From: Bombella dulcis
Lineage (GTDB): Bacteria > Pseudomonadota > Alphaproteobacteria > Acetobacterales > Acetobacteraceae
Assembly (NCBI RefSeq): GCF_026385505.1
Contig: NZ_JANIDV010000002.1
Coordinates: forward strand, 1-64,000
Direction: 5' to 3'
DNA: 64,000 bases
In this document: in pieces, positions 54,622 through 58,087 of the stretch
Layout of the letters: each line of letters starts with the position of its first letter
How positions within the stretch are numbered: the first letter of the stretch is position 1
Notes under the pieces: generated by a model
The model's database searches: none
The model's input: the letters and a program-made list of their open reading frames with translations, nothing else
Told to the model about the DNA's origin: nothing
Translations under genes and position numbers: made by a program

Positions 54622-56862
54622 ATGAAACTGAAAAATTTCGGGGCAGCCCTGCTGATTGCCAGCACGACCCTGACATCTTTCGCCTCTGCTGCTCTGGCAG
54701 CCGATGTTCCGAGCCCGAACCAGTACTACTGGCCGAAGGGCATGAATCTGGCCAAGCTGCGTGCTCACGATTCAGAGTCTGATCCGTACGGTTCAGAATA
54801 TTACACGAGCTATCACAAGAAGTTCGAGCAGCTGAACCTTCAGGAAGTCCGCAAGGACATCGAGAAGGTCATGCTGACTTCTCAGCCCTGGTGGCCGGCT
54901 GACTACGGCAACTATGGTCCGTTCTTTATCCGTATGGCTTGGCACAATGCCGGTACATACCGTGCCATCGACGGCCGTGGTGGTGAAGAGGGTGCCCAGC
55001 AGCGTTTCGCCCAGTTGAATGACTGGCCGGACAATGCCAGCCTCGACAAGGCCAAGCGTCTTCTGTGGCCCGTCAAGAAGAAGTATGGTGAGAAGCTCTC
55101 CTGGGGTGACCTTATCGTCCTGACCGGTGACGTTGCGCTGAACCAGATGGGCTTCAAGACCCTCGGTTTCGTCGGTGGCCGTCCGGATGACTGGCAGTCC
55201 GAGCTGATCTACTGGGGTCCGGGTACCACCTTCTTCCCGAACAAGAGCTCCTTCCAGGTCGGTCAGAACGGCACCCTGAAGCACCCGCTGGCTGCCACGC
55301 ACATGGGTCTGATCTACGTGAACCCGGAAGGGCCGAACGGCGATCCTGATCCGGTCAAGTCCGCTGCCATGATCCGTCTGGCATTCGGCCGCATGGCCAT
55401 GAACGACGAAGAGACCGTGGCCCTGATCGCCGGTGGTCACACATTCGGCAAGGCTCATGGTGCCCATCCGAACTCCTGCCTGAGCGGCCCGCCGGTTGCC
55501 AACGGTGTCGAGCATCAGGGTCTGGGCTGGGCCGATCACTGCATCAAGGGCACGCAGACAGCTGACGATGCCTCCACCAGTGGTCTGGAAGGGTCCTGGT
55601 CTGCTGATCCGATCCATTTCACCACGCAGTACATTGACAACCTGCTGAACAATGACTGGGTGCTGGGCACAAGCCCGACCGGTGCTCATCAGTGGCACAC
55701 CAAGACGGACGACAAGATTGCTCCGGATCCGGCAAACCCGAACGATCCGTCCAAGATGCGTCCGATCATGATGTTCACCACAGACATCGCCCTGAAGACC
55801 GATCCGGTTTACCACAAGATCCTTGCTCGTTGGGCTGAGCATCCGAACGAGTTCGCCGATGCCTTCGCCCGTGCATGGTTCAAGCTGGTCGTCCGTGACA
55901 TGGGTCCGAAGAGCCGTTATTTCGGTAGCGAAGTTCCGAAGGAAACATTCGTGTGGCAGGACCCGGTCAACATGCCGGCCAAGCCGATCAACCAGGCTGA
56001 CGTCCGTGAGCTGAAGAAGCTGATCGCTGCTTCCGGTCTGTCCGATCGTGAGCTGATCAAGACAGCGTGGGCTGCTGCTTCCTCCCATCGTGTGACCGAC
56101 CACCGCGGTGGTGCCAACGGTGGCCGTCTGGCTCTGATGCCGCAGAACGGCTGGGCCGTGAACGATCCGGAAGAGCTGAAGACCGTCCTGCCGAAGCTCG
56201 AGCAGATCCGTGATAAGTTCAATGCTCACAGTGCCCGCAAGGTTGCTCTGGCTGACATCATCGTTCTCGGCGGTAGCGTTGGTATCGAACATGCTGCTAA
56301 GAAGGCTGGTGTAGATATACAGGTGCCGTTTGCTCCGGGCCGTGGCGATGCCACCCAGGACCAGACGGACGTCAATTCCTTCAACCTTCTGGAGCCGACA
56401 GCTGACGCCTTCCGTAACTACTACCGTGCAGATGCGGACAATACACCGCCTTTGAACGCTCTGGTGGACAAGGCTGACACGCTGGGTCTGACCATCCCTG
56501 AGATGACAGTCCTGCTAGGCGGTTTGCGTACTCTGGATGTTAACAGCGGTCACTCTGCTGCTGGTGTGCTGACGAAGAACCCGGGCGTCCTGAGCACGGA
56601 CTTCTTCACCAACGTTCTGACGATGGACACACGCTGGCAGAAGGTTGCCGGTCAGGAAGACCTCTATGAGGGTTATGACCGTGCCTCCGGCCAGAAGCTG
56701 TGGACAGCCACGGATGTGGACCTGGTCTTCGGTGCCAATCCGGAACTGCGTGCCGTTGCTGAGGTCTATGCCTCCGACGACTCCAAGGCGAAGTTCTACA
56801 GCGACTTCGTGAAGGCCTGGACGAAGGTGATGAACCTCGACCGTTTTGACCTGCAGCGTTAA
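54622..56862 (+). CDS. katG: Exported catalase-peroxidase KatG
   Basis: Bifunctional haem enzyme that dismutates hydrogen peroxide or reduces it with an electron donor. The active site is complete: Arg104, Trp107 and His108 in [11 protein letters not shown], the proximal His in [12 protein letters not shown], and tyrosine and methionine of the Met-Tyr-Trp crosslink in LIYVNPEGP and FGRMAMND. 746 residues with both KatG halves. Unlike most KatG it begins with a Sec signal peptide ([17 protein letters not shown], cleavage near residue 26), so it should act in the periplasm. A start seven codons upstream is possible. It is followed on the same strand by pseudoazurin and cytochrome b561, which could supply electrons. 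Codons are strongly biased, suggesting high expression. Confidence 0.96.
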
Positions 56863-56901
56863 GACTGTTTTTTCTTAACAGGAAAATCAGGAAAACACAT
56901 T

Positions 56902-56924
56902 CCGCCGGGGTTTGTCCCCGGCGG
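56902..56924 (+). terminator. Hairpin between katG and pseudoazurin
   Basis: Perfect 9-base-pair stem CCGCCGGGG/CCCCGGCGG with a five-base loop and only three T after it. Likely a partial terminator or stabiliser that makes katG mRNA more abundant than the downstream message. Confidence 0.65.
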
Positions 56925-56947
56925 TTTGGTAAGAAGTGGAGGATAGT

Positions 56948-57391
56948 ATGTTGAAATTTGCTGGTGGTGCCCTCGCCCTGTTCATGGCAACAGCCCTGTC
57001 CGCCACGGCGGCCACGGTTGACGTGAAGATGCTGAGCCACGGTGCTCATGGCTATTCTTTCGAGCCGGCTGTCGTTTACATCCACTCCGGTGACAGCGTG
57101 CGTTTCGTGCCGACAGACCCGGGCCATAACGCCCAATCCATTCCGGGCATGACGCCTGATGGGGCCGCACCCATCAACGTGCCTTTCAGCCAGGAAAAGA
57201 TTGTCCAGTTCACCAAGCCCGGCCTGTACGGGTACAAGTGCCTGCCGCATTTTGCTCTGGGCATGGTGGGTCTGGTTGTCGTCGATAACGCTAACAACGA
57301 GGCTCAGGCCCGTAAGGCTCCGCTTTATGGGGCTGCCAAGCGGCGTTTCAATGAGCTGTTCCAGGAAGTGGACAGCAAGAATGACAAGTAA
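56948..57391 (+). CDS. Pseudoazurin (blue copper protein)
   Basis: Small periplasmic electron carrier of 147 residues. Residues 1-22 are a signal peptide ending ATA. The mature protein has the pseudoazurin pattern MLSHGAHGYSFEPAVVYIHS. Type 1 copper ligands are His60 (DPGHNAQ), Cys98 and His101 (YKCLPH), and Met106. GGAGG lies eight bases upstream of the chosen ATG. Pseudoazurins usually donate to nitrite or nitrous oxide reductase, but no denitrification gene is nearby. Adjacent katG and cytochrome b561 point to peroxide reduction instead. The C-terminal extension of about 25 residues is lysine- and arginine-rich. Confidence 0.92.
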   Translation: MLKFAGGALALFMATALSATAATVDVKMLSHGAHGYSFEPAVVYIHSGDSVRFVPTDPGHNAQSIPGMTPDGAAPINVPFSQEKIVQFTKPGLYGYKCLPHFALGMVGLVVVDNANNEAQARKAPLYGAAKRRFNELFQEVDSKNDK

Positions 57392-57406
57392 GAGAGTTCT
57401 GGCCTG

Positions 57407-57445
57407 AGGGCCGGAGACTGCTTATTGTTGGGTCGGCCCTTTTTT
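57407..57445 (+). terminator. Terminator after pseudoazurin
   Basis: AGGGCCG (57407-57413) pairs with CGGCCCT (57434-57440) around a 20-base loop, followed by six T. The cytochrome gene downstream therefore may need read-through or its own promoter. Confidence 0.65.
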
Positions 57446-57502
57446 CCGTTTCATAGTGGCAGGGGGCCGATTTTTTTATTCCATGATTCATGGAGATAAA
57501 GC

Positions 57503-58087
57503 GTGTCAGAAAAAGTGGAAATGATGACTGGCGAGCCATCACGCCATAATGCGGTAAGCATTTTCCTGCATTGGGTGATCGCTCTGCTGGTCTTCTTTAT
57601 GATCGGCCTTGGCCTGTATATGGACCATGTTCCCGTCAGTAATTCAGGCTTCCTGCATCAGTTTCACAAGTCCGTTGGCATTGTGACCATGCTGTTGATC
57701 GTGGTGCGTGTCATCTGGCGTCTGACGCACAAGGCTCCGGCCCTGCCGAAGGACCTGTCGGCAGCACAGCGTGTGGTGGCTGGCGGGATGGAGGGGCTGC
57801 TCTATCTGTACCAGATTTTCGTACCGGCCACGGGCTGGCTGATGGTGTCCTCCATGGCCATGCCGATCGTGCTCTTTGGTTTGGTCTCATGGCCGCTGAT
57901 TCCCCTGCCGCAGAGCGTGATGGATAGTGGTACTCTGGCTGAAGTCATGCCGGACATCCATAACTGGCTTGCCTGGACCTTCGGGGGCTTCATTGCCCTG
58001 CATGTGCTGGCCGCCCTCTATCATCGTTTCATCCGGAAGGATCAGGTGGTGAACCGCATTCTGCCCCGTCATGGGTCCGGACGCTGA
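57503..58087 (+). CDS. Cytochrome b561 (quinol-oxidising membrane protein)
   Basis: A 194-residue inner-membrane dihaem cytochrome with four hydrophobic helices. Haem-ligand histidines are visible in SIFLHWVIALLVFF (helix 1), FLHQFHKSVGIVTML (helix 2) and MPDIHNWLAWTFGGFIALHV (helix 4). Bacterial CybB-type proteins oxidise ubiquinol and pass electrons on, often to a periplasmic acceptor encoded beside them. The start is GTG with TGGAGA upstream. Being third after katG and pseudoazurin suggests the order quinol, cytochrome b561, pseudoazurin, KatG. Confidence 0.92.
   Translation: MSEKVEMMTGEPSRHNAVSIFLHWVIALLVFFMIGLGLYMDHVPVSNSGFLHQFHKSVGIVTMLLIVVRVIWRLTHKAPALPKDLSAAQRVVAGGMEGLLYLYQIFVPATGWLMVSSMAMPIVLFGLVSWPLIPLPQSVMDSGTLAEVMPDIHNWLAWTFGGFIALHVLAALYHRFIRKDQVVNRILPRHGSGR

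Follow-up and report, generated by a model that had tools for sequence, protein, structure and literature searches.

A conserved gene cassette for a predicted exported catalase-peroxidase, a pseudoazurin, and a cytochrome b561 in Acetobacteraceae suggests quinol-linked periplasmic peroxide reduction

The window, a 64,000-nucleotide stretch of Bombella dulcis DNA, carries at positions 54622 to 58087, all on the plus strand, consecutive genes for a catalase-peroxidase (KatG) with an export signal, a pseudoazurin (Paz), and a cytochrome b561. The coordinates of the original prediction proved exact, and the family models agree with its three assignments, as do the solved relatives (the 5l05 series for KatG, 1pmy for pseudoazurin, and 5oc0, E. 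coli b561). The cassette suggests quinol-linked periplasmic peroxide reduction in a composition of which, as had been anticipated, no description turned up in the openly available full texts searched. The three genes are very probably functionally linked. On comparative grounds we further consider it reasonably likely that electrons would pass from quinol via b561 and pseudoazurin to KatG, in that direction, feeding its peroxidase activity and/or rescuing stalled enzyme. The features are as follows.

54622-56862, plus strand: katG, catalase-peroxidase, predicted exported, 746 aa (TIGR00198, NF011635, residue map).
54622-54699, plus strand: Sec-type signal peptide of KatG, 26 aa, predicted cleavage between ALA and AD (sequence; kept in 30/30 close relatives).
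55477-55542, plus strand: stretch from Cys286 (55477-55479) to Cys307 (55540-55542), possible disulfide (comparison of KatGs).
56902-56924, plus strand: GC-rich hairpin between katG and paz, no long U tract (z = -3.9).
56948-57391, plus strand: paz, exported pseudoazurin (blue copper protein), 147 aa (TIGR02375; KatG-linked clade).
57125-57265, plus strand: type 1 copper ligands His60, Cys98, His101, and Met106, loop motif CLPH (sequence comparison).
57503-58087, plus strand: cytochrome b561, 194 aa, GTG start, four helices, two haems b expected (PF01292, 5oc0, clade, residue map).

Elsewhere in the window, positions 54096 to 54182, directly after a tRNA-Lys, resemble the 5' part of a tRNA-Leu; the sequence was not called by ARAGORN and may be a remnant.

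KatG, the only one in this 1.87-Mb genome (27 contigs), scores 937.6 bits against TIGR00198 (cut-off, 770.25) and 1055.1 bits against NF011635. The Sec signal peptide claimed for it is present in the sequence, with a positive n-region, a hydrophobic stretch, an AxA site, and no twin arginine, and a signal-like start was found in all 30 close relatives, scored by a simple home-made rule on the N-terminal sequence. The protein falls within the exported subgroup and is predicted to leave the cytoplasm. A cysteine pair, Cys286/Cys307, occurs in 30/30 exported Acetobacteraceae KatGs and in none of the cytoplasmic KatGs. It is also found in 24 of 101 other KatGs, all 24 with a signal or lipobox (by the rule or by eye), while five further KatGs pass the signal rule yet lack the pair. 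The distribution fits a putative disulfide formed outside the cytoplasm. Lipoprotein-like exported KatGs with lipobox-like N termini were encountered in Bdellovibrionota and a Rickettsiales bin (L038, L042, and L047). In one small genome (G126, locus L228) katG lies in two open pieces, and some neighbouring genes look decayed too.

The catalytic apparatus is intact: the distal Arg-Trp-His, the proximal His, Trp, and Asp, the Trp-Tyr-Met set, and the mobile Arg switch are all present, and the ten catalytic or catalase-specific residues are complete in G000 and in 30/30 relatives. By its residues KatG should be a full catalase. Because every catalase residue is intact, including Trp-Tyr-Met and the Arg switch, it needs no donor to work, and the idea that catalase activity had been lost, making KatG dependent on a donor, was rejected. 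A monofunctional catalase is encoded in 13/13 genomes tested (in two pieces in G126); that of G000 has no signal-like start.

The exported KatG clade was found in 30 of 398 Acetobacteraceae genomes, at an identity of at least 62%. Conservation of the three-gene order had been proposed as a check, and katG, paz, and b561 indeed follow one another on one strand in 22 of the 30 genomes, from four genera: 11/11 in g1 (the genus of the window), 2/2 in g101, 1/1 in g9, and 8/8 in g85. In one of the 22 (G328, g85) paz is split by a frame break; another g85 genome, G287, additional to the 22, keeps the order with a frameshifted katG. The situation named as speaking against the original prediction, i.e., relatives in which the genes are not neighbours and do not co-occur, is not the rule, but eight of the 30 genomes lack one or both partners, six having no intact pseudoazurin and all eight no linked b561. 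Two of them (G251 and G390, g54) have katG-paz with no b561 found, the paz of G390 running into masked sequence (N); what looks like a large fusion 3' of katG in that genome is nothing more than this. In the others (G037, G046, G218, and the three g100 genomes) no intact paz adjoins katG, G218 possibly retaining a remnant of the start of paz (40% over 42 residues; E = 0.001).

When 14-kb loci were compared between g1 plus g101 and g9 plus g85, and also between g1 and g101, the only genes in common were those of the cassette. Because the order is conserved while the flanks differ completely, we reject chance neighbourhood. Co-occurrence is strong, with a Fisher p of 1.6e-20, a value that ignores shared ancestry. 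In the KatG tree, g100 branches first, followed by g9 with g85 against the rest; the KatG-linked pseudoazurins form one clade (support, 100/97), as do the KatG-linked b561s (92/92). Read informally, the three trees suggest as the simplest history that the cassette would have been assembled once, with later losses. Pairwise dN is much lower than dS in each of the three genes, least so in b561, with dS near saturation for paz and b561.

Outside the Acetobacteraceae, none of 80 KatG loci contained the cassette, and the exported KatGs had no Paz or b561 within ~8 kb; nor was it found in 29 pseudoazurin loci from other Alphaproteobacteria, whose flanks covered just ~1.5 kb. Partner-free exported KatGs thus exist among other Acetobacteraceae as well as beyond the family.

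The pseudoazurin has a signal peptide and lies narrowly over the TIGR02375 equivalog cut-off (111.6 versus 109.85 bits; relatives, 119.7 to 126). The full type 1 copper site attributed to it is present, with ligands invariant among the relatives, and within the sample the CLPH loop motif is restricted to the KatG-linked pseudoazurins. The net charges of the two proteins, KatG and pseudoazurin, did not argue clearly for or against docking. The usual partner of pseudoazurin is nitrite reductase. NirK was sought as a hidden partner, and none scored over cut-off in 13 genomes that have a katG-paz pair. The tested genomes of g1 and g101 (G000, G032, and G158) lack the CCP_MauG dihaem peroxidase family, which G008, G149, G251, and others do have.

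These observations bear on the possibility that pseudoazurin and b561 shuttle electrons to another enzyme of the periplasm and lie beside katG only as a result of stress regulation. In its favour, six genomes keep an exported KatG but no intact pseudoazurin, G251 has a KatG-Paz pair with no b561 beside it, and the hairpin 3' of katG would permit separate katG expression. Yet pseudoazurins of the linked clade were seen solely beside katG among the Acetobacteraceae genomes, neither NirK, in the 13 genomes searched, nor, in the g1 and g101 genomes tested, a cytochrome c peroxidase offers another recipient, and the order survives the complete change of flanks. We regard co-regulation alone as unlikely.

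The hairpin itself, GC rich and with no long U tract, was found 3' of katG in every genome checked, with differing sequences. Most exceed the 95% level of control windows (G328 is below it and G085 only at it), and a Shine-Dalgarno-like stretch often follows. In the window the element is possibly an mRNA 3'-end stabiliser or attenuator, and a read-through operon yielding more KatG than pseudoazurin would fit it. Between paz and b561 lie 111 bases in the window, compared with ~10 in several g85 genomes; the candidate terminator there scored no better than shuffles in the window.

The b561 scores 102.8 bits against PF01292 and matches PDB 5oc0 at 8.6e-12. It was described as a dihaem protein, in keeping with the four haem histidines of 5oc0, which are kept and are invariant in the KatG-linked b561s. 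Of the quinone site of E. coli superoxide oxidase, R59, R63, H158, and D164 are kept as well, and position H87 has a Glu in g1 and g101 but His in the rest of the linked clade. The cationic antenna positions of superoxide oxidase (R30, R35, R38, R108, and K134, as listed in PMC11869295) are not conserved, apart from an Arg at 134 in some linked b561s, and the periplasmic loops carry a mean of 0.9 basic residues versus 6 in E. coli. Against the CybB equivalog model NF008566 the window protein scores 54 bits, below the cut-off of 170. An ordinary superoxide oxidase is hence disfavoured, the antenna being absent.

In the tree the KatG-linked b561s stand apart from those linked to YceI and to a catalase-like protein, the YceI-linked group being the nearest to them. 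No YceI was found beside the KatG-linked b561s, so that the LcoA-BcnA arrangement was not encountered there. In other Acetobacteraceae, YceI-b561-YceI clusters resembling Burkholderia LcoA-BcnA are present (L236, L237, L239 to L242, L249, and L250). A second b561 adjoins a 364-aa catalase-like protein with a membrane-anchor-like start (L233:5940-7586; G000:C21:205942-207411, minus strand), and this pair recurs in g1, g101, g85, and G029, with b561s that form a clade of their own (100/98).

The genes could also lie together because they answer the same stress. In that case KatG would need no partner for its catalase work, and superoxide or other periplasmic radicals would be oxidised by b561 and pseudoazurin, with quinone receiving the electrons, as in E. 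coli superoxide oxidase. In favour are the nearest solved b561, which is 5oc0, that same superoxide oxidase, the retention of the haem ligands and most of the quinone-site residues, and a KatG that is complete as a catalase. Other b561s have YceI neighbours, an arrangement shared with LcoA-BcnA, the radical defence of Burkholderia (PMC9113575). The antenna residues are nonetheless absent, bar the Arg at 134 in some, and the loops are nearly devoid of basic residues. Pseudoazurins have potentials of about +270 mV and ubiquinone one of about +90 mV, so that donation from pseudoazurin would be easy to KatG intermediates and hard to ubiquinone, which argues against this parallel defence. We hold it to be distinctly unlikely. 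The direction from quinol to b561 to pseudoazurin draws its support from the missing antenna, the potentials, and the conservation of the quinone site.

A third reading keeps the chain to KatG and makes bc1 the main pseudoazurin donor in g1 and g101, with b561 as a helper only; although cytochrome c1 is encoded in G000, G032, G158, and G390, none of which has a CoxB over cut-off as an outlet, bc1 is absent in G008 and G149, both with the full cassette, and b561 stays linked in all four genera, making this highly improbable. Because bc1 is absent in G008 and G149, b561 is a plausible quinol donor there. CoxB exceeded the cut-off in G100 alone among ten genomes, and one G000 locus (G000:C12:141328-141879; L246) holds bc1 genes though no cytochrome c oxidase subunit II reached cut-off.

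According to the chain that we prefer, from quinol through b561 and pseudoazurin to KatG, the locus would be a dedicated periplasmic peroxide-defence cassette in which exported KatG destroys hydrogen peroxide outside the inner membrane. The b561 would take electrons from ubiquinol, move them through its haem pair to the periplasmic side of the membrane, and there reduce pseudoazurin, which would diffuse to KatG and reduce compound I, compound II, and protein radicals. KatG would in this way be a quinol-linked peroxidase and would also be rescued from stalled states, the balance between peroxidase turnover and rescue being, like each transfer step and its direction, part of the proposal. At acid pH the catalase mode of KatG is weak and its peroxidase mode strong, and for this reason the donor should matter most there. 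Counting against the chain are a KatG that needs no donor, the partner-free relatives, the presence of bc1 in g1 and g101, and the Glu at position 87 of b561 in the same two genera. Of the KatG-pseudoazurin-b561 chain originally put forward, the linkage is supported, by the gene order, the separate clades, and the lack of any other recognised Paz partner in the genomes tested, but its strong form is weakened, since KatG is a complete catalase and exported KatGs exist without partners. The donor would probably be a help rather than a need, because KatG can work alone and some relatives have no partners. Peroxidatic donors stimulate the catalase activity of KatG, to go by the title of a study cited in PMC9687031.

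Several known systems share parts of this design. As cited in PMC10301912, pseudoazurin donates to cytochrome c peroxidase in Paracoccus pantotrophus (Pauleta et al. 2004), likewise a periplasmic blue copper protein passing single electrons to a periplasmic haem peroxidase; as far as that citation goes, the peroxidase is a dihaem c-type enzyme, not KatG, and the pair has no b561 partner. The quinol peroxidases YhjA of E. coli and QPO of Aggregatibacter also use quinol electrons to reduce periplasmic hydrogen peroxide (PMC10301912), but each is a single membrane-anchored trihaem c protein, whereas here there would be three proteins, with b haems and copper. E. coli superoxide oxidase CybB (PDB 5oc0; PMC11869295) belongs to the same fold family and has its haem ligands and most of its quinone site in common with the window b561, from which it differs in its cationic superoxide antenna and in the CybB equivalog cut-off, which the window protein does not reach. 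LcoA-BcnA of Burkholderia (PMC9113575) similarly combines a b561 with a secreted partner against oxidative damage, the partner being a YceI-type lipocalin instead of KatG and pseudoazurin. Periplasmic KatGs such as Legionella KatA, as cited in PMC4899803, are exported catalase-peroxidases too; in the open literature, so far as such citations convey it, no dedicated electron donor was found reported for them.

We know of no physiological donor for the peroxidase mode of KatG. The cassette names two candidate donor proteins, and because all three genes are separable in the organisms that carry it, the donor question is directly testable. That KatG has a natural protein donor, with b561, pseudoazurin, and exported KatG acting as a three-protein quinol peroxidase that makes the peroxidase mode part of respiration, is a tentative proposal to which we would give slightly less than an even chance. 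Three b561 lineages are each accompanied by a different envelope protein, namely KatG with pseudoazurin, the catalase-like protein, and YceI; the first two look peroxide related, and YceI is known from radical defence. The second b561, paired as it is with a catalase-like protein that has an apparent membrane anchor, raises the possibility that b561s in general serve periplasmic haem peroxidases as an outlet for quinol. As for the setting, our guess is a bee- or insect-associated acetic acid bacterium, for which sugar oxidation in honey, nectar, or larval food would give rise to extracellular peroxide at acid pH, where the peroxidase or rescue role of KatG should matter most.
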